Shown here: piece after piece, positions 6,200 to 18,409 of the stretch
Layout of the letters: every line of letters begins with the position of its first letter
Numbering within the stretch: the first letter of the stretch is position 1
IMG/VR virus record: IMGVR_UViG_3300030108_003415
Coordinates: 1-24,795 of that record
Strand: one strand, 5' to 3'
Source of the DNA: a virus
Length of the DNA: 24,795 bases
Position numbers and translations under genes: made by a program
The notes under the pieces: generated by a model
Databases searched by the model: none
Seen by the model: the letters and a program-made list of their open reading frames with translations, nothing else
Told to the model about the DNA's origin: nothing

Positions 6200-6316
6200 A
6201 TGATAACTAGAATTATGACTTTTTTTAAAGACAAAGGTGAAGGAACAAATTGGGATTTAGACTATGGTAAGCTTATTATCATTGCGCTTTGTATTTACAT
6301 AGCACTAAAAGTCTAA
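6200..6316 (+). CDS. 38-aa single-pass membrane peptide (holin candidate)
   Basis: ATG at 6200, one base after the upstream stop, with AAGGA about 8 bases upstream. It encodes 38 aa: a short charged N terminus with FKDKGEGTNWDLDYGK, then a hydrophobic C-terminal segment (about residues 25-38, LIIIALCIYIALKV). It is the last gene of the plus-strand late block, two genes after the lysin, which is where a small holin-like protein would be expected. Its TAA stop overlaps the TAG stop of the convergent DNA polymerase gene. Function is not demonstrated, and the transmembrane segment is short for a holin. Confidence 0.55.
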   Translation: MITRIMTFFKDKGEGTNWDLDYGKLIIIALCIYIALKV

Positions 6317-8220
6317 CCAACTTCTCCCCAATTATCACCGAGTTCTTGATCCACTTTACTTGGAACTTTCAATGGTAAACCTGTTTCCATGATTTCGGTG
6401 ATTTCTTTAGCTTGTTCTTTAGAGTGAATACTAAAACACAATTCATCATGAACACTTAATAAAGGCAAGTGTCCTTTTTCATAACAATCAAGCATGGCTT
6501 TTTTGGTTTGATCAGCAGCACTTCCTTGTATCAGTTTATTTAAAGCTTTGTATGTAAAAGCTCTTCTCAATCTTTGAGGTCCATATTCGGCCATAGCTTC
6601 TTTTTTTGGTAATGCTTTATTGTAACCAAAAGTACAAGGTTCCCATAAATCAAATCTACAGCGTCTACCTAGAATGGTTCTAATCTTTCCATGTTTTTGT
6701 GCATAAACAGATATTCTATTAGCTAACCCTTTTACAAAAGGTACTTTCTCATGATATTGATCTAAAAGTTTTTTAGCATCATCAATTGTTATATCTAAAG
6801 TAGCAGCTAGTTTCCCCTGACCCATGCCATACATAATTCCTAAGTTTACTGTTTTTGCTTCAGTTCTAGTGATCCCTGCCATATCGGCAACCATTTGATG
6901 AAAATCATCATCACCTTCATGATATTTAGCTACAACTTCATCTATCAAAGGGTGTCTGTCCTCTTCATTTAATTCAGAACAATAATGAACTAATAATCTT
7001 GGCTCTTGAGAAGAATAATCAAAACTCCCCCATTTCTCTCCTAGTTCTGGTTCAAATAATCCCCTAATTAGCTTTTTAATTTCTGGATCTCTAGCCGGGA
7101 TTTGTTGTAAGTTTGGGTTAGAGGAAGAAAATCGACCTGTTACAGTACCTCCGTCCTCGGACCTTAATTGATGAAACTCACAATGAATCCTATCTTTATG
7201 GGCATGATTTATGATACTATCTATAAAAGTTTTTTGAGCTTTATTTAACTCTCTCACCTTTAATATTTTGGCTGCTATTGGATGAGGGCAAGCTTGTAAA
7301 GAAGATTTAGTAAAGGATGGCTTATTTGTTTTATCAGTTTTTTCGTAAGGTATTTTGTAATATTCAAATATTTTGGCTATACTGGTGGATACCCAAGGTT
7401 CAAGTTCGATTGATGTCTCTTTTTTAATAGCTAAAAGAAGTTTTTGTTCTCTTAATAAAAAATCTTTTTTTATTAACTCTGCCCTATGTGTATTAACTTT
7501 AACACCAACTTGCTTCATGTCTAAAAGAACAGGTAGAAGTTTTGTTTCCATATCAAAAATTGAAGTTACTTTCTCTCTTACAATTTCTGTTTCAAATTTT
7601 TTCCACAAATTTAAAGTTATTCGAGCATCTTGTTCTGCATAGTGACCTACATATCTAGCAGGTAATCTCCATAAATCTTTTTTAGGATCCACACCAAAAG
7701 CTTTGGCGGCAGCTCTTAAACCTTTTTCATCCTTAGACATGGCTAAGTAATCTCTACCAAGATTATTTAAACTATAACTAAATCTATTTTCATCAAGAAG
7801 AGGAGCAGCAATCATAGTATCAATAATTCTACCTTGAACTGGTATTTTTGCCCAACGTAACCACCCTAAATCATACAAAGCATTGTGCATAATCTTTGGA
7901 ATATGAGGAGTAGCCAGTTGTGCTTTGAGCCATTCTTTGACTCTTCGACCAGATATATTACCACCACCCTCATGTTTAATAGGATAATACCCAGTAAAAT
8001 CTCCTGCTGCTATAGCCACACCTACAATGAAACCATCATCCCGAACCCAACCAGGTCCTTTTGTCAAAAGATTTGGATCACTAGTTTCTAAGTCTACTGC
8101 AATGTAATCACAGTTTCTCAAATCGGGGAACTCATCTGGAGCAACCCAATCAACTTCGGGCATTTCCATTTCATTCTTTAATTCATAGTGTAAAGCACTT
8201 TTAAAAAGACTATTCTGCAT
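6313..8220 (-). CDS. polA: DNA polymerase family A with 3'-5' proofreading exonuclease
   Basis: Replicative phage DNA polymerase, 635 aa from the ATG at 8220. That ATG follows a GGGGAG ribosome binding site and overlaps the upstream gene by 11 bases. A GTG at 8250 would add ten residues. Exonuclease motifs are present: DLET (D43, E45), N113 with YD at D117, and Y194-x3-D198. There is no 5'-3' exonuclease domain. Polymerase motifs are TGRFSSSNPNLQQIP (about 361-375), motif A FDYSSQEPR (D401), motif B RTEAKTVNLGIMYG (R452, K456, Y464) and motif C SVHDEL (H591-D592-E593). At the position equivalent to E. coli Phe762 the residue is Leu460. All catalytic residues appear intact. It is the last gene of the minus-strand replication operon. 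Confidence 0.96.
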   Translation of the reverse strand: MQNSLFKSALHYELKNEMEMPEVDWVAPDEFPDLRNCDYIAVDLETSDPNLLTKGPGWVRDDGFIVGVAIAAGDFTGYYPIKHEGGGNISGRRVKEWLKAQLATPHIPKIMHNALYDLGWLRWAKIPVQGRIIDTMIAAPLLDENRFSYSLNNLGRDYLAMSKDEKGLRAAAKAFGVDPKKDLWRLPARYVGHYAEQDARITLNLWKKFETEIVREKVTSIFDMETKLLPVLLDMKQVGVKVNTHRAELIKKDFLLREQKLLLAIKKETSIELEPWVSTSIAKIFEYYKIPYEKTDKTNKPSFTKSSLQACPHPIAAKILKVRELNKAQKTFIDSIINHAHKDRIHCEFHQLRSEDGGTVTGRFSSSNPNLQQIPARDPEIKKLIRGLFEPELGEKWGSFDYSSQEPRLLVHYCSELNEEDRHPLIDEVVAKYHEGDDDFHQMVADMAGITRTEAKTVNLGIMYGMGQGKLAATLDITIDDAKKLLDQYHEKVPFVKGLANRISVYAQKHGKIRTILGRRCRFDLWEPCTFGYNKALPKKEAMAEYGPQRLRRAFTYKALNKLIQGSAADQTKKAMLDCYEKGHLPLLSVHDELCFSIHSKEQAKEITEIMETGLPLKVPSKVDQELGDNWGEVG

Positions 8221-8470
8221 CCAACTCCCCACCAAGTCCTGCATACCCACAAATATCTATCCAAGAGTCTTCTTTGCTATCATGCACTAACCGTGCCATT
8301 TTTATCCCAATCATGCACAAAATAACTTCTTTAACTGTTACCTCTCTACCCATAACCACAGACCATATATCTGCAATTCTTTTATGATTGATGTAAGCAT
8401 CTCCATAATCTTTTGCTCTATCACCGTTAATAAGATTTTCGGCTTCTTTTAAAATCTCATCTCTTTTCAT
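8210..8470 (-). CDS. DUF6378-type phage protein
   Basis: An 86-aa protein with the pattern typical of the DUF6378 family of small phage proteins: an N-terminal ILKEAENLINGDRAKDYGD motif, then NHKRIADIWSVVM, and a central IGIKMARL helix followed by DSWIDICGYAGL. The family is common in phage replication or nucleotide-metabolism regions and its biochemical role is not established. It overlaps the upstream helicase stop by 4 bases (ATGA) and the polymerase start by 11 bases, so it is translationally coupled on both sides. Family assignment is by recognition of the motif order, not by a search. Confidence 0.8.
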   Translation of the reverse strand: MKRDEILKEAENLINGDRAKDYGDAYINHKRIADIWSVVMGREVTVKEVILCMIGIKMARLVHDSKEDSWIDICGYAGLGGELDAE

Positions 8471-9984
8471 ATGTTATACCTGTACTTTGAACCTGTTTCT
8501 ATAATGTGTAATTGTTTTTTTGTTCTTGTTATTCCAGTGTAAAAAACTCTATGTTCATCATCTGGAAATTGAGTTTCTACGCAAGGATAAGCTGACTCTG
8601 TTAATAGCATGATATTATCATCTTCTCCACCTTTCATTGCGTGTATTGTTGATAGTGTTATTCTTGGTTTCTTTACGTCTTCTCCTCTTTTTACTAGCGC
8701 TCTATAATATTGCTGCTCTTCTGGTGTCATATTAACTACTGTAGTAGATGGAGTATCTTTCGAAGCAATCAAACCATGATTTTGAACTAAATCATCATAG
8801 GATAAAATACTTTCTGGATCGATAAAATCTAAAGATTTTGCAAAGCCTCTTTTAACAATTGCATTTGTTCCTTGCTTTGGAACTATTCTATAAAGCTCTT
8901 TAATAGCTGTAATAGGTAAAGATTCACCTTGAACGAGAGATTTCCATATCTCCATACCCTCTAAATAACTATAATCTAAACTTGATCTACCTCTATGCTC
9001 GAATAAATAACCGTCCTCTTGTAGGTCTTTTTTAATGCCACCAATTATTCGATTGGTTCTAGCTAGAATTGTCCATGAACCTTGATCCATATCAACATCA
9101 TACCAGTGCATATGATAATTTAATTCTCCTTCTTCTTTAGTAGGAAACCAAGTCTTTGGTAAACGATCATCAATTCTATTTACAACCTTGTTAGCAACAT
9201 GATGAGCAAGTATGGGAACTCTGTAGCTTTGTTGTAAAACCTCTGTGTTATCACACATATGAATAAACTGTTCTACATTTACACCCATCCATCTATGTAC
9301 TGCTTGATCATCATCTCCAGCATACCAGACTCTTTTTGCAGATCTACGCATAATTTTAATTTGCTCCCATTGTAAGGGAGTTAAATCCTGTGCTTCATCA
9401 ACAATTAAAACTTCTAAGTTGGGGGAGGTTCCTTGCTCAACAAAAAGTTTTATCATATCTGTAAAATCAAACTTATCGTTTTTCTTTTTATACTTTTGGT
9501 AAATTTCATTAACTTTCACGAGTAAAGGCCAACTCATTTTATAGTTTCTATTTTCATTGTATTGTTGTTCTAGACTAACACAACGTAAACTAGCCTTACC
9601 AATAGTCTCTATGTATTTATTACCTTCTTTGGCAGAAGTTGGTAACAAACCATCTTCCATGCTAGTGGCAGTGCCTTGATCGAATAACATCCCTAGTTCC
9701 AATCCTAATTGATTAAAATCATATCGGGATAAGATTTGATCACTATTCATACCTAACCATTGAAAACCAATGGAGTGTAAAGTTCTAAACCAAGGTACGT
9801 TATCTAATGCAAGTCCTAACTCAGACACAGTACGCATTTTAGCTTCTTCTATAGCCTTTTTAGAAAAAGAAACAAAACCTATCTTATCAGGAGACACGCC
9901 TTTTTGTAACTCCTCTTTTACTATCTCAACAAGTCTATATGTCTTCCCACATCCCGGTGGTCCAAGCAAAAGTTTTTCAACCAT
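8467..9984 (-). CDS. Superfamily 1 (UvrD/Rep-like) DNA helicase
   Basis: A 505-aa protein with the full SF1A helicase motif set. It has Walker A GPPGCGKT (8-15), motif Ia GFVSFSKKAI (about 36-45), and motif II VDEAQD (195-200). Motif III is AGDDDQAVHRW (222-232), motif IV QQSYR (251-255), motif V TLSTIHAMKG (about 444-453), and motif VI YTGITRTKKQL (481-491). These indicate an ATP-dependent, presumably 3'-5', single-strand translocase for phage replication or recombination. It is shorter than UvrD (about 720 aa), with reduced 1B and 2B insertions, as often seen in phage helicases. It overlaps the upstream HTH gene by 8 bases and the downstream DUF6378 gene by 4. Confidence 0.93.
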   Translation of the reverse strand: MVEKLLLGPPGCGKTYRLVEIVKEELQKGVSPDKIGFVSFSKKAIEEAKMRTVSELGLALDNVPWFRTLHSIGFQWLGMNSDQILSRYDFNQLGLELGMLFDQGTATSMEDGLLPTSAKEGNKYIETIGKASLRCVSLEQQYNENRNYKMSWPLLVKVNEIYQKYKKKNDKFDFTDMIKLFVEQGTSPNLEVLIVDEAQDLTPLQWEQIKIMRRSAKRVWYAGDDDQAVHRWMGVNVEQFIHMCDNTEVLQQSYRVPILAHHVANKVVNRIDDRLPKTWFPTKEEGELNYHMHWYDVDMDQGSWTILARTNRIIGGIKKDLQEDGYLFEHRGRSSLDYSYLEGMEIWKSLVQGESLPITAIKELYRIVPKQGTNAIVKRGFAKSLDFIDPESILSYDDLVQNHGLIASKDTPSTTVVNMTPEEQQYYRALVKRGEDVKKPRITLSTIHAMKGGEDDNIMLLTESAYPCVETQFPDDEHRVFYTGITRTKKQLHIIETGSKYRYNI

Positions 9985-10186
9985 CTGTTTTCTCTCTTGG
10001 TCTTTTCTTTAACCATTCTTCTACTTCTTCTTGAATCCACCTAATAGTAGAATTCTTTCTTGCATCACCAAAATGAACTGGTTTCGGGAAAGAACCCTCT
10101 TCCACCCATTTGTATATTGTTGATCGAGAAACACCAAGCATTTCGGTAATCTCTCCTATTTTTATGTATTTGTTAGAAAGGGACAT
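9977..10186 (-). CDS. AlpA/MerR-like helix-turn-helix DNA-binding protein
   Basis: A 69-aa protein with a winged HTH of the AlpA/excisionase type: KIGEITEMLGVSRSTIYKWVEEGSFPKPVHFG, then RWIQEEVEEWLKKR. The ATG at 10186 is preferred because GAGGAG lies about 10 bases upstream. A more upstream ATG at 10207 lacks a site and would lengthen the overlap with the primase gene. Such proteins are transcription activators (AlpA) or recombination directionality factors. With no integrase in view, a regulator of phage transcription or replication is more likely. It is a candidate binder of the TGTTAC-type repeats seen in three intergenic regions, though nothing in the sequence proves that link. Confidence 0.82.
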   Translation of the reverse strand: MSLSNKYIKIGEITEMLGVSRSTIYKWVEEGSFPKPVHFGDARKNSTIRWIQEEVEEWLKKRPREKTDG

Positions 10187-11711
10187 CTTCCTCAAACTCC
10201 TCTTCATTGTTAACAGGTATCTCTACCTCTGCTGATTTAAATTTGGGAACCCACCAAACTCTTATGTTTGTCCAATTCCCATTCTCATCTTTTACTTTGT
10301 ACATTCCATTACACACATTTCCATCATTCATATCTTTTAATCTTTGCTGGATTTGTGGACGATTGTATAAAGTAAAACCTCGCTGTTTTAAAAACTCTTG
10401 GAGACCTTTCATAGTGAAATAAGTCTTTTCATCTTCTGTCCAAGGTTTTCCTACTGCGAGTTCTTCTGCAAACTTTGCTCTGATTCTACTCATGCAAAAA
10501 GTTTCCAAAAGTTCTTTGAACTGACCAAAGCCAGTTAATTCTTCCGATACTTCTATTTCTGTAGCATTGCTTAAAAGATCATTTACAATTGGTTGCCAAT
10601 CTCCCGATTTAGTTAAAGGTGGCATAAAATTAATTTGTTCCATACAAGCACGTTGAAACTGTATAGGCATTTGTAATTGCTCTGTTGTTAGTTCTAATCT
10701 TTTGCCATCTACATCTAAAAAATATAATCTAGGATCGGACAATAAAATAGTAAGACCACCTATTTCGGGAGAAGCTTCAGAAGTTCCCACACCAAACTGT
10801 CGGGTCATACATAGCGATTTGTTGCAATGGCTTACTAATGGTTCGGCTTTGCACGTATAAAAATATTCTTTCTTATCTAGCTGACCTTGTAAAGTTACGA
10901 TATCAGATGCCGGTAAAGGTGGAAGACAGTGCTTTTGGTTCATTTCTTCCAGTTTTTCTTTCCAAGAGTCGGGAAACTTACGCTTTACGTAAATACCACA
11001 ATTAAACATGACATTGTTCCTTGTTCCTTCGGGAATACCCATTAACAGAAACATCTGCAAACATGGAGGAGCATCTTTAAATTGTTCTCTCTGTGTGCCA
11101 AAATCTATTTTTTCCAAATCGGCTAAAGAAACTTTTGACTTGTCAATTTCATTTAAGAATTCTTCTAAAGTTAAATCATCACCTTTTTTGTCAATGGCAT
11201 ATCTAACCGTATTCTTTGCATTAAAGTATGGAAGATTAATAAAATTACCAACATCGCCACGTTCAAATAAAATTTCATCTTGTTTTGGAAATATCTCACA
11301 ACCCGAATAACCTAGCGCCGCAGAAATCTCTCCCAAATAATCTCGAACCTCTGATGCTTTAGTAGCTTCTTTCATAAACAAAAATAAATGCGCTCCACCA
11401 GATTTAGACCTACAGACCACCAAGGGTAACTTTAATTTCTCACACTTCTTTTTAATTTCAACATGATCTATCGGATATGTATCAATATCTAAGACACCAA
11501 AATAACAATTATTGTCTTTGTTAATCGGGATAGAACCAATACCTTTTTTACCCTCCAAATGCTCTTGAATAAGTTCTTTGGTCAATGGTTGTTTAACAAT
11601 AAAACTTTTTGCCTCTGTTTTACCGTTTCTTCTTTTATTCCCAATTTCAGTTTGTCCATGAGCAAAATCCGAACCTTTAAACGCTAACATGAACCTATCA
11701 GTTAAACTCAT
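10173..11711 (-). CDS. Archaeo-eukaryotic-type (AEP superfamily) DNA primase
   Basis: A 512-aa protein whose N-terminal third shows AEP primase motifs: DxD in YFGVLDIDTYP (D75, D77), the SxH-type motif in CRSKSGGAHLFLF (H108), then EIFPKQ (139-144) and NFINLPYF (156-163). It resembles the primase domain described in TOTE-type conflict systems and related phage primases. A Cys-rich stretch follows near 288-305 (TCK...HCNKSLCMTRQFGVG), probably zinc binding. No helicase motifs are present, so unwinding would be done by the neighbouring SF1 helicase. The C terminus is acidic and ends EEEFEEDVPF, like the tip of an SSB. The ATG at 11711 has GGAG upstream, after a hairpin-rich intercistronic region. 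Confidence 0.85.
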   Translation of the reverse strand: MSLTDRFMLAFKGSDFAHGQTEIGNKRRNGKTEAKSFIVKQPLTKELIQEHLEGKKGIGSIPINKDNNCYFGVLDIDTYPIDHVEIKKKCEKLKLPLVVCRSKSGGAHLFLFMKEATKASEVRDYLGEISAALGYSGCEIFPKQDEILFERGDVGNFINLPYFNAKNTVRYAIDKKGDDLTLEEFLNEIDKSKVSLADLEKIDFGTQREQFKDAPPCLQMFLLMGIPEGTRNNVMFNCGIYVKRKFPDSWKEKLEEMNQKHCLPPLPASDIVTLQGQLDKKEYFYTCKAEPLVSHCNKSLCMTRQFGVGTSEASPEIGGLTILLSDPRLYFLDVDGKRLELTTEQLQMPIQFQRACMEQINFMPPLTKSGDWQPIVNDLLSNATEIEVSEELTGFGQFKELLETFCMSRIRAKFAEELAVGKPWTEDEKTYFTMKGLQEFLKQRGFTLYNRPQIQQRLKDMNDGNVCNGMYKVKDENGNWTNIRVWWVPKFKSAEVEIPVNNEEEFEEDVPF

Positions 11712-11730
11712 AATTTCTCCGAAAGTAAAT

Positions 11731-11808
11731 GTTACTTGGTACTAGAGTCGGTTGGTGAATGGTTCCGAATCTACTCATAGTTATAAACCGACCCTAGTAT
11801 AAAGTAAC
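11731..11808. repeat. Long inverted repeat / stem-loop upstream of primase gene
   Basis: Two 23-base arms, 11731-11753 and 11786-11808, are complementary at 20 of 23 positions. As minus-strand RNA one of the three mismatches becomes a G-U pair, leaving a 2-base internal bulge. The apical loop is 32 bases (11754-11785). The outer ends carry TGTTACT and AGTAACA, the same 7-mers that form the operator-like palindrome at 13232-13249. It could be an RNA stabiliser or attenuator between the SSB-like and primase cistrons, a protein-binding site, or a replication element. Confidence 0.75.
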
Positions 11809-11811
11809 AAA

Positions 11812-11861
11812 TAGGGGATGCGCCACATGAAAAATACAAGAGTTGTATGACCCATCCCCTA
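11812..11861. repeat. Nested hairpin downstream of SSB-like gene
   Basis: A perfect 9-bp inverted repeat, TAGGGGATG at 11812-11820 and CATCCCCTA at 11853-11861, encloses a 32-base loop. Within that loop is a second perfect hairpin, ATACAA-gag-TTGTAT (11834-11848). On the minus-strand transcript it begins 5 bases after the SSB-like stop codon. There is no T-tract directly after it, so it does not look like an intrinsic terminator. Confidence 0.7.
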
Positions 11862-11866
11862 ACAGA

Positions 11867-12628
11867 TTAAAACGGTACTTGTTCAGTTTCGTTGTCAGAG
11901 CCATGATCTTCTTCCACGGCTTTAGCTGCACCAGACTTTACAGAGTTACGAAAGCTTATTGCCTCCGAAAACAAGTTTTTATCATCTACTTGTTTTACCA
12001 TTTCAACACTCCAGTTATACCAACTACCTTTATCGTTGCTTTCTTCTGTAGTCTTTAAAGACCACACTGTTGCAAACAAGGCAGGAGTTTTTAACTGACC
12101 TTTCGGATCTTTTATTTTCAACATAGCAATTTGTGTTTTCCAACGTCTAGATACCTTAAGTTGCGTTGATTTCATATCCACAATCACTGGTTGAAACATA
12201 CCATCCTCACCTAATAACAAACAAAAATGTTGATCAGATTTAACCAACTCATTGCCATTAGGTAATATTTCACTAGCACCCACTCTTTGAGTTTTGGAAA
12301 TGTCTGGGTTATTTATATCAACCTCTCCCACAAATCCTCCTCCTTCGGCTCTGGGTACAAACTCAAAATATTTGGTTTGCTGAAAACAAGGAACAACGTG
12401 TATTCCTTTTTCTCCTTCCCAATACTGTCCTGTAACAGTATTGAAAACATCACCTGCACTTGCGTTCTTAATAAAGGCAGGATCATTCTTTTTTACTTGT
12501 GGGGATAATGCTTGGATTACCCTCACAAAAGGAATTTGCAGTTCAGATGTATCATAATCAACACCTTCCCCCGCAGTTGCAAATATATCATCCATAATAT
12601 TTGCAGGTAAGTTTGCTTGACTAGCCAT
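11867..12628 (-). CDS. Single-stranded DNA-binding-like protein
   Basis: A 253-aa protein of a phage replication-module type I recognise as a putative ssDNA-binding protein. It has a beta-rich core with aromatic residues (GQYWEGEKGIHVVPCFQQTKY, FATVWSL, WYNWSVEMV). It ends in a disordered acidic tail, EEDHGSDNETEQVPF. An acidic tail ending in Phe is typical of bacterial SSB (DIPF) and T7 gp2.5, where it docks polymerase, helicase and primase. The gene is the second in the replication operon, one gene before the primase, and shares one base with the upstream stop. The fold assignment is inference from tail, context and composition, as no classical OB-fold signature is evident by eye. Confidence 0.7.
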   Translation of the reverse strand: MASQANLPANIMDDIFATAGEGVDYDTSELQIPFVRVIQALSPQVKKNDPAFIKNASAGDVFNTVTGQYWEGEKGIHVVPCFQQTKYFEFVPRAEGGGFVGEVDINNPDISKTQRVGASEILPNGNELVKSDQHFCLLLGEDGMFQPVIVDMKSTQLKVSRRWKTQIAMLKIKDPKGQLKTPALFATVWSLKTTEESNDKGSWYNWSVEMVKQVDDKNLFSEAISFRNSVKSGAAKAVEEDHGSDNETEQVPF

Positions 12629-13197
12629 TATGTTTTTCTCCTTTTAACGTCAGCAGTTCGAGCCACAAAAGCACCGAACAAATCAAGATCTATTGGTAAA
12701 CCCTTTTCTACTCTCTCCTTTACAAAAGCTTTGAGTGTCATTGAGTGTATATGTGTTTTGCTTTCGGGATGAAAACCACGTTGCTCTAGTTCTCCCATTA
12801 GAGAACCTGCAACATTATCCTCTCCCCGGCTAAACGATAAGATAACATCATTCTTAATAATATCATCTAAACCATTTTCACGAAGCCAAGTATATGCCTC
12901 TTGTCTTCGATCAGATGGGATACTAGCAGATACAAATGGTTTTAACGTAACAGTAGCACCATCTACATCTAACCTTTCTATTCCCATCTCATCCATTAGC
13001 TCTGGAATAGTTTCAATGGATAGTCTTTGCTTTTCCTTTTTCAAAACTTTTAGGTTTTCTTCACATTTTGTGATTTTGCTAGAAACATCATTTAGTTGTT
13101 GAACTAAGGAAGATAGGCTTTTTGTTTCTTCAACATTTACGTTATTCAACGTATCTGAATCTACAAACATATTTTCTTCAAAAATATCTGTCTTCAT
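12628..13197 (-). CDS. Conserved phage replication-module protein with coiled coil
   Basis: 189 aa from the ATG at 13197, which has GAAGAGGA about 10 bases upstream. A longer ORF to 13287 would run through the divergent promoter. Residues about 25-70 form a heptad-like coiled coil (LSSLVQQLNDVSSKITKCEENLKVLKKEKQRL). After this come the conserved stretches IPELMDEMGIERL, a short beta segment with DGATVTLKPFVSASIP, then AYTWLRENGLDDIIKNDV and HSMTLKAFVKERVEKGLPIDLDLFGAF. I have seen this architecture in many unannotated phage proteins encoded beside replication genes, but I know of no assigned function. It is the first gene of the leftward replication operon. Confidence 0.8.
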   Translation of the reverse strand: MKTDIFEENMFVDSDTLNNVNVEETKSLSSLVQQLNDVSSKITKCEENLKVLKKEKQRLSIETIPELMDEMGIERLDVDGATVTLKPFVSASIPSDRRQEAYTWLRENGLDDIIKNDVILSFSRGEDNVAGSLMGELEQRGFHPESKTHIHSMTLKAFVKERVEKGLPIDLDLFGAFVARTADVKRRKT

Positions 13198-13225
13198 GAC
13201 AAGTACATCCTCTTCAGGTTTAAGT

Positions 13226-13254
13226 TTGACAAGTAACAGGATTGTTACTATATA
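13226..13254 (+). promoter_or_regulatory. Sigma70-like promoter with internal palindromic operator
   Basis: TTGACA (13226-13231), a 17-base spacer, and TATATA (13249-13254) match the sigma70 consensus spacing exactly. The spacer is occupied by a perfect palindrome, AGTAACA-ggat-TGTTACT (13232-13249). The helicase gene ribosome binding site AGGAGG (13265-13270) follows, giving a 5' leader of only about 15-20 bases. A protein bound between -35 and -10 would be expected to repress. The site lies between divergent operons and could also affect the leftward replication operon. Confidence 0.78.
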
Positions 13255-13276
13255 TATAACATATAGGAGGACATTT

Positions 13277-14770
13277 ATGAAAGTCAACTACAAATTTAAA
13301 ACTAAACCATTTAAACATCAAATAGATGCTCTTCGAGCTTGCACTGGTAAAAAACGTTACGCTTTTTTTATGGAAATGGGAACAGGTAAATCAAAAGTTC
13401 TTATAGATGATATTTGTCGTCTACACGTAGAAAAAGAAATTCATTTTGCTCTTATTATTGCACCTAAAGGAGTATTCAGAAACTGGACAGAAAAAGAGAT
13501 ACCACAACATTTTTGGAGTACTGTACCAGTATATTTGTCTAGATGGAGTTCTAATTTAACAAAAGCTCTTAAAGAAGAAATCCATGTAATGATCAGAGCA
13601 GGATATTCTAAAATGAAAATTTTTGTTATGAACGTTGAAGCTTTTTCCAATCCAAGTGGAAAAGGCATTGAAGCTGCTGAGTGGTTTGCAAAAAAATATG
13701 GAATGTCTGGATTAATTGCAATAGACGAATCAACAACAATTAAAAATCCAAAATCAAAAAGAACTAAATCTTTATTAAAAATTGCAAAACATTTTAGATA
13801 TAAAAGAATTCTTACTGGATCTCCAATCACACAATCTCCCATGGATCTTTATTCGCAATGTGAGTTTTTAGAAGAGGGATCTTTAGGACATAGTTCTTTC
13901 TATTCTTTTCAAGGTCGATATGCCATCCTCAATCAAAAACAAATGGGACCTAGATCCTTTCGACAAGTCATAGGTTACAAGAACCTCGAAGAACTTACCA
14001 AGAAACTCGAACCTCTGTCCTTCCGGGTTTTAAAAGAAGATTGTTTAGATTTACCTAAAAAAATTTACACTGTCCGATATATAACAATGAATTCAGACCA
14101 AGAAAAAATGTATAAGAAAATACAAAAAGAAGCATTGCTTATGTTTGATAACGGAGAGATTGTTTCTACTCAAGAAATGATTACACAAATGCTTCGGCTG
14201 CAACAAATACTTTCGGGTCATTTAAAATCAGATGATGGTAAAACGATTAGTTTTCCAACATCCCGGTTAGATGCGTTAATAGATATATGCCAAGAAACTT
14301 CGGGGAAATTAATTGTTTGGTCTAGATTTAGATACGACATTATTTCTATTACCAATAAACTAAAAGAATTGTTCGGGGAACAAAGTGCAGCTTCTTTTTT
14401 TGGGGATACTTCTGAAAAAGAAAGACAAAGAGTTATTAATGAATTTGAAAATGCAAGCTCTAAATTAAAATTTTTAGTAGGCAATCCAAATACAGCAGGT
14501 AGAGGATTAACTTTAAATCAAGCCAAAACGGTGGTATATTATGCAAATGATTTTGATTTGGATATTCGTACTCAAAGCGAGGATAGATGCCATAGGATAG
14601 GCCAAGATAAATCAGTTTTATATATTGATTTACTTTGTGAAGGAACAATAGACGAGAAAATAATTAAATCTTTAAAAAATAAAATAAAAATTGGAGCAAA
14701 GGTTTTAGGAGAAGATGAAAGAGAATGGCTAGAGATAAAGCAAATGAAAATGAGATTGACCCAAAAGTAA
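13277..14770 (+). CDS. SNF2-family DEAD/DEAH-type helicase (SF2)
   Basis: 497 aa from ATG 13277, chosen because AGGAGG lies 6 bases upstream. A longer ORF from 13196 would run through the promoter. It has an N-terminal HQ pair (H14, Q15), Walker A MEMGTGKSK (about 32-40), motif II as DEST (150-153) rather than DEAH, and motif III LTGSPI. The C-terminal lobe has KLIVWSRFRYDI, AGRGLTLNQAKTVVYY and motif VI RCHRIGQ (437-443), typical of SNF2/Rad54-like ATPases. Such phage proteins are thought to translocate on double-stranded DNA during replication, recombination or packaging. It is the first gene of a short rightward operon and overlaps the next gene by 46 bases. Confidence 0.92.
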   Translation: MKVNYKFKTKPFKHQIDALRACTGKKRYAFFMEMGTGKSKVLIDDICRLHVEKEIHFALIIAPKGVFRNWTEKEIPQHFWSTVPVYLSRWSSNLTKALKEEIHVMIRAGYSKMKIFVMNVEAFSNPSGKGIEAAEWFAKKYGMSGLIAIDESTTIKNPKSKRTKSLLKIAKHFRYKRILTGSPITQSPMDLYSQCEFLEEGSLGHSSFYSFQGRYAILNQKQMGPRSFRQVIGYKNLEELTKKLEPLSFRVLKEDCLDLPKKIYTVRYITMNSDQEKMYKKIQKEALLMFDNGEIVSTQEMITQMLRLQQILSGHLKSDDGKTISFPTSRLDALIDICQETSGKLIVWSRFRYDIISITNKLKELFGEQSAASFFGDTSEKERQRVINEFENASSKLKFLVGNPNTAGRGLTLNQAKTVVYYANDFDLDIRTQSEDRCHRIGQDKSVLYIDLLCEGTIDEKIIKSLKNKIKIGAKVLGEDEREWLEIKQMKMRLTQK

Positions 14771-15538: not shown

Positions 15539-15724
15539 TTACTTTTTTTTGTAACAATCATCAAGCACTATTTTTTTATTTAATGGCATACCATAAAATC
15601 TTTTTCTAATTAACCAAACTTCACATTCTTTTTTGTTTTTAAACTCTTTTTCAAAATGAACTGTAGGACATTTTGTTTCTCCATTTTCAATCATACAAAC
15701 TAAAGCCATGGCTTTCCAAATCAT
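15539..15724 (-). CDS. Small Cys-containing phage protein
   Basis: A 61-aa protein, MIWKAMALVCMIENGETKC..., with Cys residues at about 10, 19, 34 and 57. The N terminus is mildly hydrophobic and resembles a short export signal. The spacing (W, C, C, then EC-W, and a final C) resembles the secreted protein at 5983-6198, and similar small proteins occur in many marine phages. A periplasmic disulfide-bonded role is possible but unproven. It overlaps the upstream nuclease gene by 4 bases (ATGA). Confidence 0.65.
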   Translation of the reverse strand: MIWKAMALVCMIENGETKCPTVHFEKEFKNKKECEVWLIRKRFYGMPLNKKIVLDDCYKKK

Positions 15725-16137
15725 TTAATTACTCCTATATGTTTTAAACATTTTATAAATGTTCTTTGCTCTAAATCTTCTTCATTAAAATATTTTTTAT
15801 TAATTCTTTTAGAGGATGCTCCACCAATTAAATCTATGTGCATAAAATAAACTTTTTCTTTTGGAATAGATACAAAAGCCAAAACATCACAATGAGATAT
15901 ATTTAAAGGTCTCTTCTTTCCAGAATGTGATACTGCAAACTGATAAGACGCTCTCATATTTCTACTACTATCTGCTATCAGAGAACTTGATTTAACCTGC
16001 ACTCGTAAAAGATTTCCTCGAATATCTACGATCACATCTGTTTTATTAAGATTTACTATTTCAGCATTAAATCCTAATTTCATTAGGCGAACACAACAAA
16101 TATGCTCGCCTAATTTTCCTATTTCAACTTCGTTCAA
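15721..16137 (-). CDS. PD-(D/E)XK family nuclease
   Basis: A 138-aa protein with the PD-(D/E)XK fold signature: IGKLGEHICCVRLMKLGFNAE (E11), NLNKTDVIVDIRG (D34), then LLRVQVKSSS (Q47-V-K49). This resembles the small family of group I intron-type or Holliday-junction-type PD-(D/E)XK proteins. It may be a resolvase or endonuclease acting on host or phage DNA. It is coupled by 4-base overlaps both to the GIY-YIG nuclease gene upstream and to the small Cys protein gene downstream, placing two nucleases in tandem after a methyltransferase. Confidence 0.82.
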   Translation of the reverse strand: MNEVEIGKLGEHICCVRLMKLGFNAEIVNLNKTDVIVDIRGNLLRVQVKSSSLIADSSRNMRASYQFAVSHSGKKRPLNISHCDVLAFVSIPKEKVYFMHIDLIGGASSKRINKKYFNEEDLEQRTFIKCLKHIGVIK

Positions 16138-16703
16138 GGATAATCCAACTCTTTTTTCGTTGGTGGTTTATGTATGAATTTAAAACCACCATATCTGTCC
16201 TTAACTATCTCTGGAAGCTTATGTACAACGGGTCGTGCAGATTTTTCCCATTCTTTGTGTTTTTCTTCCAACTCATCTTCTCTTGCGTTAAAAATAGGCT
16301 CTGCTTCTTCCATAGAAATACCAAGTTCATTAGCCACCTCTTTTACCCCAAAGCAATAAAAATCACCTATTAAATTACCATCAATTCTCCACTCATTAGA
16401 GTAATAGCTAGGTTTAAAACTCAAAAATTTGCTTGAATATTTTTTTCCTTTTTTATTGTACTTTGGCTTAAACCAGCGAATACATTTGTGTTCAGCATAC
16501 AATCTGTGTTGTTCTGAATCTAGCCAGAAAAAAGTTTTACTTGAAATAAACTTAAAGTTGTCAAATACTTTTGAGTTTTTGTGTTCGCCTATTCTTCTGA
16601 TAATACAATCTGATTCGCCAACGTAAACAATCTTTCCTTTATGTGTTAAAAAATATATTCCAGACAGAAATAAATCTGCATGACAGTTGTTCTCCCACTT
16701 CAT
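16134..16703 (-). CDS. GIY-YIG nuclease
   Basis: A 189-aa protein with an N-terminal GIY-YIG domain: SGIYFLTHKGKIVYVGES (G15-I-Y and V26-Y-V-G), catalytic Arg in CIIRRIGEH (R36, with H41), and the metal-binding Glu in LYAEHKCIRWFKPKYNK (E71). After the domain come SYYSNEWRIDGNLIG and a helix with a LGISMEEAE motif that could be a DNA-recognition element (residues about 125-155). It could be a freestanding homing-type or structure-specific endonuclease, or a restriction-like enzyme working beside the methyltransferase. It overlaps the methyltransferase stop by 4 bases. Confidence 0.87.
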   Translation of the reverse strand: MKWENNCHADLFLSGIYFLTHKGKIVYVGESDCIIRRIGEHKNSKVFDNFKFISSKTFFWLDSEQHRLYAEHKCIRWFKPKYNKKGKKYSSKFLSFKPSYYSNEWRIDGNLIGDFYCFGVKEVANELGISMEEAEPIFNAREDELEEKHKEWEKSARPVVHKLPEIVKDRYGGFKFIHKPPTKKELDYP

Positions 16704-17809
16704 TCTATTTCCTTCTTAATTGCTAATCCAATTTGCATGGCTAACTGTGGAACAATGGCATTGCCTAGTCCTTTAAGTCTGTCCATCCTTTTGGGTATCC
16801 CATGAGCCACTCGACCCACGTTGGGTTCAGAGAACCAGATTCCTTCGTCTTGCCTAATTCTGGGTGATTGCCCAACATCTTTTGCATTTGACCCTGCCAT
16901 GTTCTTCCTGCGTGATGTTCGTTGGCTGATGGTGTCGGCCACATTTGATGTACCACCATGTCTGGTAAAGAATTGGTCGGAGTTCTTCCTGCATTTTTCA
17001 ATGTTTCTGGTTTCCTCGCTCCCTTGTAATCCCTCGCAGTTGGAGTAGGCCATAGATGAACTGATTTCGGATCTTGTGCATCTTTCACTGCTGAAATCAA
17101 ATTGATCTGATGACTCTTCTCTATCAAATTCTTCTTGCTCCTCGGACCTCTGTTCCCATCCCAAGCATTTGGAGTAGGCCATAGTTTCATGGTTTGCTCG
17201 TCCACTTGCTCCCTCAGATTGCTCGGTTTCGATCTCCCCTTTCTGTGACCCTGCTGCATTTTCTTGGTTGCTTCTTCTGATCTCGGTGGAAGATGATCCA
17301 TTGTATTCGGTGTCGCCCACATTTCTTGCGATAATCCAGAGTCTGTCTCTTCGGTGTGGCGCATTTTTGGCACAAGCTGGAACAATAAACGTCCTTGTGG
17401 CGTAGCCTTGGCTTTCCATGTCAAGCAACACTTTGTCGAGACCCAAGGCAACGTGACCATAAACGTTTTCGCAAACGACCCAAGAGGGTCTTTTTTGTGT
17501 AATAATTCTAAAGATGCTCGGCCAGATGTGCCTGTCATCTTCTTCTCCTTTTCTAAGTCCTGCAACCGAGAACGGTTGGCACGGGTATCCACATGAGAGG
17601 ATGTCATGGTCGGGAACATTTCTTTCTGGGTCATTTGCTAACTCCTTTACATCTTTAGCTATTGGTACATTTGGAAAATTCTTTGCGAGTATTTTACGAC
17701 ACCATTCTTCGGTGTCGCAAAACATTATAGTTCTGGATAGTTCTGCCCAAGAAAATCCCAAGCTAAAACCACCTATGCCACTACATAAATCTACGTGTCT
17801 AAGCATCAT
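16700..17809 (-). CDS. C5-cytosine DNA methyltransferase
   Basis: A 369-aa protein with the C5-MTase motifs: I VDLCSGIGGFSLGF (7-19), IV SCGYPCQPFSVAG with nucleophile C77, VI CENV (E114), VIII APHRRDRLWIIA (150-161), and X RLKGLGNAIVPQ (344-355). It would transfer a methyl group from SAM to cytosine C5, presumably to protect phage DNA or shape regulation. The target-recognition region (about 162-330) contains imperfect repeats (VGDTEYNG, MAYSKCLG, MAYSNCEG, VADTISQR, MAGSNAKD). From about residue 59 to 347 the gene also carries a long +1-frame ORF (separate entry), and local GC is clearly higher than in flanking genes. The start at 17809 follows AGGA and overlaps the upstream gene by 11 bases. 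Confidence 0.94.
   Translation of the reverse strand: MMLRHVDLCSGIGGFSLGFSWAELSRTIMFCDTEEWCRKILAKNFPNVPIAKDVKELANDPERNVPDHDILSCGYPCQPFSVAGLRKGEEDDRHIWPSIFRIITQKRPSWVVCENVYGHVALGLDKVLLDMESQGYATRTFIVPACAKNAPHRRDRLWIIARNVGDTEYNGSSSTEIRRSNQENAAGSQKGEIETEQSEGASGRANHETMAYSKCLGWEQRSEEQEEFDREESSDQFDFSSERCTRSEISSSMAYSNCEGLQGSEETRNIEKCRKNSDQFFTRHGGTSNVADTISQRTSRRKNMAGSNAKDVGQSPRIRQDEGIWFSEPNVGRVAHGIPKRMDRLKGLGNAIVPQLAMQIGLAIKKEIE
16765..17634 (-). CDS. Embedded +1-frame ORF inside the methyltransferase gene (WPTP-repeat protein)
   Basis: 289 codons with no stop, in the +1 frame relative to the methyltransferase. The ATG at 17634 has AAGGAG 7 bases upstream. The product has DPLGSFAKTFMV (49-60), CLTWKAKATPQGRLLFQLVP (70-89), four repeats WATPNTMD (106), WPTPNAWD (152), WPTPTARD (195) and WPTPSANE (232), and a C terminus NPTWVEWLMGYPKGW (270-284). 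I recognise this series from many database proteins overlapping phage C5 methyltransferases, often labelled hypothetical or as methyltransferase themselves. The motif conservation could partly be a shadow of conserved methyltransferase codons, for example the APHRRDRLW region read one base on. The good ribosome binding site, length and raised GC favour real dual coding. Function unknown. Confidence 0.6.
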   Translation of the reverse strand: MTQKEMFPTMTSSHVDTRANRSRLQDLEKEKKMTGTSGRASLELLHKKDPLGSFAKTFMVTLPWVSTKCCLTWKAKATPQGRLLFQLVPKMRHTEETDSGLSQEMWATPNTMDHLPPRSEEATKKMQQGHRKGRSKPSNLREQVDEQTMKLWPTPNAWDGNRGPRSKKNLIEKSHQINLISAVKDAQDPKSVHLWPTPTARDYKGARKPETLKNAGRTPTNSLPDMVVHQMWPTPSANEHHAGRTWQGQMQKMLGNHPELGKTKESGSLNPTWVEWLMGYPKGWTDLKD

Positions 17810-18254
17810 AGGTTCCTGTGAATTTTATAGGTTGCTCTACGTTTCCATCTGTCAAACCACAATCTTCGTCAAGATATCCACAAAACATATCTGCTTCATC
17901 ACGGTAAAACCATCTGACATATTCCAAACCTTTAGAGAATTTTGGATCATCAAGTATTTTTCGTAAAATATTAGTCGGGGGAGACCATGCAGTAAAAAAA
18001 CTTACTTGAAAAGATTTTGAACCATCTCCTATTTCACTCTCAACACATAAGTCATAACAATCCCATTTAGTATCCCAATTTTCTCTACACCAATTATAAT
18101 CCCATTTATTATCTGGCAAAGGTATAATAGAATTAAAAGTAAAATCAGACTCATCTCCTGCATCATCTTTACCTTTAACATTTTTTAAAAAACGGTCTTT
18201 GTCTTCAACTGTTTTAAAACTAAAGTATATTTCGTTTGTGCAATGATTTGGCAT
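17799..18254 (-). CDS. Api92-like / DUF1281-type ferredoxin-like-fold phage protein
   Basis: 151 aa from ATG 18254, with GGGAGA about 6 bases upstream. The longer frame to 18287 lacks a site. The N terminus MPNHCTNEIYFS, the central FNSIIPLPDN, and WCRENWDTKWDCYDL followed by FFTAWSPPTNILRKI are characteristic of the Api92-like/DUF1281 family found in phages and plasmids. The family's function is unknown. The gene shares one base with the stop of the 51-aa zinc-finger gene upstream and overlaps the methyltransferase by 11 bases. Confidence 0.83.
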   Translation of the reverse strand: MPNHCTNEIYFSFKTVEDKDRFLKNVKGKDDAGDESDFTFNSIIPLPDNKWDYNWCRENWDTKWDCYDLCVESEIGDGSKSFQVSFFTAWSPPTNILRKILDDPKFSKGLEYVRWFYRDEADMFCGYLDEDCGLTDGNVEQPIKFTGTYDA

Positions 18255-18409
18255 TACTTCTCTCCCTCGTTTAAATAATCTATACAATCTGGACAGGCAA
18301 TTCTGTCATCAACTCCAATGTTACTGAAAGCAGTACCATTACAAAAAGCAGAACCCTCTCCATCATTTTCAATAAATATATTACAAAAATCACACTCTAA
18401 ATTAGGCAT
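18254..18409 (-). CDS. 51-aa Cys-rich putative zinc-finger protein
   Basis: ATG at 18409 with AGGAG 7-8 bases upstream; the stop overlaps the next start as TAATG. The 51-aa product carries CDFC (C6, C9) and CPDC (C39, C42) knuckles, plus C23, consistent with a small treble-clef or zinc-ribbon fold. It is one of several CxxC proteins encoded in succession here. Confidence 0.72.
   Translation of the reverse strand: MPNLECDFCNIFIENDGEGSAFCNGTAFSNIGVDDRIACPDCIDYLNEGEK

Follow-up and report, generated by a model that had tools for sequence, protein, structure and literature searches.

A selected +1-frame gene nested within a viral C5-cytosine methyltransferase gene, and its probable role as the recognition subunit of a split enzyme

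The DNA considered here is the IMG/VR virus record IMGVR_UViG_3300030108_003415, positions 1 to 24,795 (the window, 24.8 kb). Its minus strand carries one gene inside another. Alpha (16700–17809) encodes the 369-residue catalytic chain of a C5-cytosine DNA methyltransferase, identified by Pfam, phrog_363, and comparison with M.HhaI, with motifs I–VIII, a putative carrier region, and motif X. Beta (16765–17634) encodes a protein of 289 residues, identified by a phrog_1008 match, its open frame, and its ratio of nonsynonymous to synonymous substitution rates (dN/dS). The two starts lie 175 nucleotides apart, which places beta in the +1 frame, inside alpha. Comparison of related loci provides strong evidence that beta is a conserved, selected protein and confirms dual coding. 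Very probably this DNA encodes both halves of a single split C5-cytosine DNA methyltransferase, alpha being its catalytic and beta its recognition subunit; the evidence for the subunit role is good but indirect, and this role is the most likely one. The initial annotation of this DNA had pointed to a 289-codon +1 open reading frame (ORF) within the methyltransferase frame and to raised GC content. The ORF is indeed present, and GC is 45–47% over 16751–17750 versus about 27–34% in the surroundings.

In the proposed enzyme alpha, with motifs I–VIII and X, would bind S-adenosylmethionine and carry the catalytic cysteine. Beta, initiated at its own ribosome-binding site inside alpha, would associate physically with alpha and be needed for catalysis, supplying a small domain made up of an N-terminal domain, at least one WPTP recognition module, and motif IX (LNPxWVExLMGYPxGW). 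The alpha stretch between motifs VIII and X would mostly carry the beta reading frame passively. Each module probably reads one DNA target, and with its four modules the window enzyme may have up to four targets. Such a multispecific enzyme would shield phage DNA against several of the host's restriction enzymes.

The catalytic chain is readily recognized. Alpha matches Pfam DNA_methylase PF00145 (3.4e-38), in an alignment that reaches residue 365, and phrog_363 (5.7e-67), and it scores above the cut-off of the NCBIfam model TIGR00675. Its resemblance to M.HhaI covers residues 3–161 only, including GYPCQ and ENV, and stops at motif VIII. A GNAIVP motif X is also present, so that catalytic motifs I–VIII and X are all found in alpha. 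Motif IX and a recognition domain are not in the alpha chain; the motif IX-like sequence lies in the beta frame. The large domain (residues 1–161, 17327–17809), delimited by the HhaI alignment, is conserved, with a dN/dS of 0.24 over motifs IV–VIII, inside the overlap. The motif X region (RLKGLGNAIVPQLAMQIGLAI..., 16703–16780) is defined by the reach of the Pfam alignment and by hhalign comparison of fused relatives with canonical motif X. Between them lie residues 162–343 (16781–17326), which have no match to solved methyltransferases. The alpha dN/dS rises to 0.76 in this interval, where that of beta is 0.45, and codons change fastest at alpha position 1, which is beta position 3. Since alpha is near neutral here, beta is constrained, and the likeness to M.HhaI ends at motif VIII, this part of alpha looks like a mostly passive carrier for the beta frame.

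Beta proteins follow a common plan: an N-terminal domain of about 100 residues, one to about eight WPTP-type modules, and an end that reads LNPxWVEWLMGYPxGW. In the window the N-terminal domain (residues 1–105, 17320–17634), placed by alignment, overlaps alpha motifs IV–VIII, has a dN/dS of 0.45, and perhaps serves in assembly with alpha. The regular WPTP repeats and distinctive end described in the initial annotation are borne out, with WATP or WPTP opening each of four modules. Clustering assigns module 1 (WATPNTMDHLPPRS..., residues 106–151, 17182–17319) to cluster M0, seen in 20 loci; module 2 (WPTPNAWDGNRGPRS..., residues 152–194, 17053–17181) to M2, in 12 loci; module 3 (WPTPTARDYKGARKP..., residues 195–231, 16942–17052) to M10, in 4 loci; and module 4 (WPTPSANEHHAGRTW..., residues 232–268, 16831–16941) to M1, in 17 loci. 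The motif IX-like end, LNPTWVEWLMGYPKGW (residues 269–284, 16783–16830), aligns without gaps and in the same register to canonical motif IX sequences such as LTPRECARLQGYPETF. A mixed alignment (A4) wrongly paired WPTP with a WPxVP stretch in alpha and was dropped.

The modules are shuffled among loci. The 61 betas compared contain 197 modules, which fall into 60 clusters and occur in many orders and combinations. A given module recurs at 65–93% identity in loci whose N-terminal domains are less than 45% identical, and such sharing also links phages of Paenibacillus, virus contigs, and genomes of spirochaetes or Verrucomicrobia. The window has four of these exchangeable modules in tandem, as in multispecific phage methyltransferases; in the relative L177, discussed below, they lie within the methyltransferase chain itself, between motifs VIII and IX. 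Family assignments of beta itself are sparse. It matches phrog_1008, which is labelled DNA methyltransferase, at 2e-38 over residues 4–168, yet it has no methyltransferase catalytic domain by Pfam; the name was probably borrowed from the overlapped gene. Scans of Pfam and NCBIfam gave no significant family for beta, and a phmmer search of PDB sequences returned no match for beta or for the beta-plus-motif-X chain of a spirochaete relative (L140).

Relatives in which the pieces are rearranged bear directly on the role of beta. In four loci (L135, L175, L176, and L177) WPTP modules and LNPxWVExLMGYPxGW lie in the alpha frame itself, between motifs VIII and X; the motif IX-like stretch reads LNPAWVEQLMGYPDGW in the first three, and the alpha-frame modules of L176 and L177 are about 46–61% identical to modules that other loci carry in the beta frame. 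An AlphaFold model of L176 has a confident catalytic domain whose nearest structures in Foldseek are M.HhaI and M.HaeIII. Two spirochaete loci, L138 and L140, have an alpha that stops just past motif VIII and a beta that extends beyond its motif IX-like end into RLKCLGNAVVP, a motif X. A similar layout in L119, where alpha is broken, is counted as supporting only. On the strength of these rearranged relatives, which provide better evidence than profile comparison, the target-recognition position is assigned to the WPTP modules and the motif IX position to LMGYP.

The initial annotation had proposed either a methyltransferase partner or a product that frees phage from restriction, and these observations favor the partner over a stand-alone anti-restriction product. 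The best-surviving alternative, itself improbable, is that beta is real and selected but acts apart from the methyltransferase, for instance as a regulator or in anti-restriction. An N-terminal domain with no known relative in Pfam, and the absence of a confident fold when beta is modeled alone, would fit such a protein. It is difficult to reconcile with a separate product that the modules and motif IX belong to the methyltransferase chain in L135 and L175–L177, that beta carries motif X as well in L138 and L140, and that, in the Paenibacillales genomes searched for both families, beta matches fall at a methyltransferase locus.

Several observations weigh against assigning beta to a split enzyme as its recognition subunit. 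Comparison of motif IX profiles, taken alone, is weak (P = 0.026). The AlphaFold model of beta alone, built with 58 homologs, is poor, with a mean predicted local distance difference test score (pLDDT) of 51 and a predicted template modeling score of 0.22, and most of the small domain in the L176 model has a pLDDT below 50. Some of the relatives are metagenome assemblies, in which frameshift errors are possible. The four loci with alpha-frame modules retain a shorter +1-frame beta, composed of the N-terminal domain and one module; the N-terminal domain therefore has some role that a split enzyme of this kind leaves unexplained. Finally, a published summary of the known split enzyme M.EcoHK31I assigns the predicted recognition domain to its large polypeptide and leaves only motif IX for the small one (PMC3404938).

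The start of beta bears its own marks of selection. The AAGGAG that the initial annotation had noticed 7 nucleotides ahead of the beta ATG is located at 17642–17647 on the minus strand, where this Shine-Dalgarno sequence is embedded in Lys-Glu codons of alpha. Lys-Glu at this site is written AAGGA(G/A) in 51 of 52 pairs (AAGGAG in 42, AAGGAA in 9); in flanking ORFs the same dipeptide is written AAGGA(G/A) in 47 of 183 cases (about 26%) and AAGGAG in 13 of 183. The start codon, ATG in 41 loci and GTG in 18, is at a fixed place, and a beta-frame stop precedes it by 2–6 codons in 58 of 59 loci. Conservation of the Shine-Dalgarno sequence, the start codon, and the upstream stop indicates that the start signals are selected, and independent initiation is therefore favored over ribosomal frameshifting. 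That beta is not separately started and is instead made by frameshifting, as an alpha–beta fusion, seems very unlikely. The two frames do lie on the same strand, with beta in the +1 frame, and some relatives have the pieces joined in a single frame; but a shift ahead of the beta start would run into the upstream stop, a shift past it would omit the N-terminal domain of beta, and beta has a ribosome-binding site of its own with ATG or GTG at a fixed site.

Selection on beta as a protein is evident across the related loci. A search of IMG/VR with beta as query yielded 41 loci, in all of which both frames are open. To remove the ascertainment bias toward beta, a second search used alpha as query; beta is encoded in 47 of the 49 loci found, and the remaining two end at a contig edge before beta. 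Frame offsets and stops were evaluated in 65 non-redundant loci, with expectations derived by shuffling synonymous alpha codons. The beta offset is 1 modulo 3 in every one of these, and the +1 frame is open from its conserved start to its conserved end, with no stops observed against about 240 expected. The +2 frame contains about 6–34 stops per complete gene.

Synonymous change in alpha is likewise depressed, and the depression is confined to the overlap. For pairs at 50–65% identity, differences at four-fold sites amount to 0.65 on either side of the overlap and drop to 0.39/0.36 within it; for close pairs the values are 0.32/0.47 outside and 0.11/0.03 inside. Divergence at these sites is lower inside the overlap in 24 of 28 independent pairs (Wilcoxon P = 8e-7). 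The dN/dS of beta is 0.45 (bootstrap 0.35–0.55) and does not differ between the two halves of the overlap; applied to the +2 frame as a control, the calculation gives 1.5 and 1.3. The initial annotation had proposed dual coding, to be judged by stops in the +1 frame of relatives, by synonymous variation, and by dN/dS in both frames. The proposal is supported on each count: stops are absent, synonymous variation is strongly lowered exactly within the overlap, and dN/dS is below 1 in alpha and in beta. Its caveat, that conserved methyltransferase residues might force the motifs, is refuted, because the C-terminal part of the alpha frame is near neutral (dN/dS about 0.76, versus 0.45 in the +1 frame) and because the same WPTP modules occur in other frame arrangements of relatives.

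A passive by-product, whose frame codon bias and the conserved residues of the methyltransferase would keep free of stops, is a reading that the comparisons have already refuted and to which we assign almost no probability, for even though the regional GC of 45–47% reduces the number of expected stops and about 6% of synonymous shuffles keep the frame open for the window alone, it would not produce the lack of stops across loci, a drop in synonymous divergence bounded by the overlap, a beta dN/dS of 0.45 against 1.3–1.5 in the control frame, a Shine-Dalgarno sequence conserved at synonymous sites, or modules retained in other arrangements. Three loci with mixed frames (L105, L115, and L129), possibly arising from assembly frameshifts or decay, were kept out of the evidence. 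Two of them, L129 and L115, also have two motif IX-like ends, and all three could be frameshift errors, decay, or further arrangements.

Split and multispecific C5 methyltransferases provide precedents for the proposed enzyme, the closest being M.EcoHK31I and M.AquI. M.AquI recognizes CYCGRG. M.EcoHK31I recognizes YGGCCR (Lee, Kam, and Shaw, 1995). Both are split enzymes (PMC3404938). M.EcoHK31I requires two polypeptides, the large one containing motifs I–VIII and X and the small one motif IX (PMC3404938). The window shows the same division, with motif IX assigned to the small chain by register and position and weakly by profile. A small chain nested in an alternative frame is found in the window and in nearly all complete relatives, and the small chain of M.EcoHK31I is likewise encoded in another frame inside the gene of its large chain. 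The difference is that here the recognition modules, one to about eight of them, appear to be on the small chain, M.EcoHK31I being compared by description rather than by sequence. In M.AquI the large chain contains motifs I–VIII and the small chain IX–X (PMC3404938), a layout shared by the spirochaete relatives L138 and L140; the window pair differs in being nested in two frames and in keeping motif X in alpha.

In the multispecific methyltransferases of Bacillus phages, motifs VIII and IX flank the recognition domains. These enzymes, of the SPR, phi3T, and H2 type, use tandem recognition domains to methylate several targets (PMC8936443). They resemble beta in their exchangeable tandem modules, shuffled as in beta, and differ in that they are single chains, whereas the window has its modules on a second chain that is read in an overlapping frame. 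The locus thus appears to work like an EcoHK31I-type enzyme, and what appears to be new is the presence of multiple recognition modules on the small chain. Searches of the literature collection used found no description of this nested alpha/beta family. The same nesting is present in Paenibacillus phage Sitara, where SITARA_60 is annotated as a hypothetical protein, 'g59 internal gene', in a record that gives neither a function nor an analysis of dual coding.

Directly after alpha, and overlapping it by 4 nucleotides, is a GIY-YIG nuclease gene (16134–16703, minus strand), followed with another 4-nucleotide overlap by a gene for a PD-(D/E)XK-like nuclease (15721–16137, minus strand) that scores below the Pfam cut-off. 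The two enzymes may be partners in restriction or nucleases of the homing type. A GIY-YIG gene is immediately downstream of the methyltransferase in L003 and L050 too, and farther away in L146. Upstream, overlapping alpha by 11 nucleotides, a gene at 17799–18287 (minus strand) encodes a small protein of unknown function that is retained beside or near the methyltransferase in about 18 related virus loci. The region 6313–14770 is a phage replication neighborhood, with DNA polymerase A and a UvrD-type helicase at 6313–9984, primase-like AEP-TOTE, Pam3 gp34-like and gp33-like proteins, and a SNF2-type helicase on the opposite strand.

The arrangement is not confined to viruses. A bacterial scan in which each species was represented by one genome recovered 52 loci from many phyla, the majority with the same nesting, and phrog_1008 was matched in 8 of 200 genomes of the order of Paenibacillus alvei and in none of 14 control genomes. 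Among loci from phages and these phyla the dual-coding stretch ranges from about 160 to 450 codons. Annotation pipelines often list only one of the two proteins, or name beta a methyltransferase. Records of Paenibacillus larvae phages list both ORFs. Prophage-like loci of E. coli retain the nested frame, and only alpha is annotated; in one of these (NZ_CP025703.1, 718–1650) the nested beta ORF contains WPTP-type modules, and RefSeq lists the methyltransferase only.

On balance we lean toward a widespread phage and bacterial class of methyltransferases in which the recognition half is overprinted on a nested +1-frame subunit built from exchangeable modules of about 30–45 residues, which would be shuffled only where both frames stay open and whose number would set the number of targets. 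To our knowledge, long same-strand dual-coding genes are rare in prokaryotes and usually unproven; here both products have a plausible function. If beta is indeed the recognition subunit, specificities credited only to the large chain have been misattributed, and the modules would constitute a testable code for methylation targets and for the resistance of phages to restriction.
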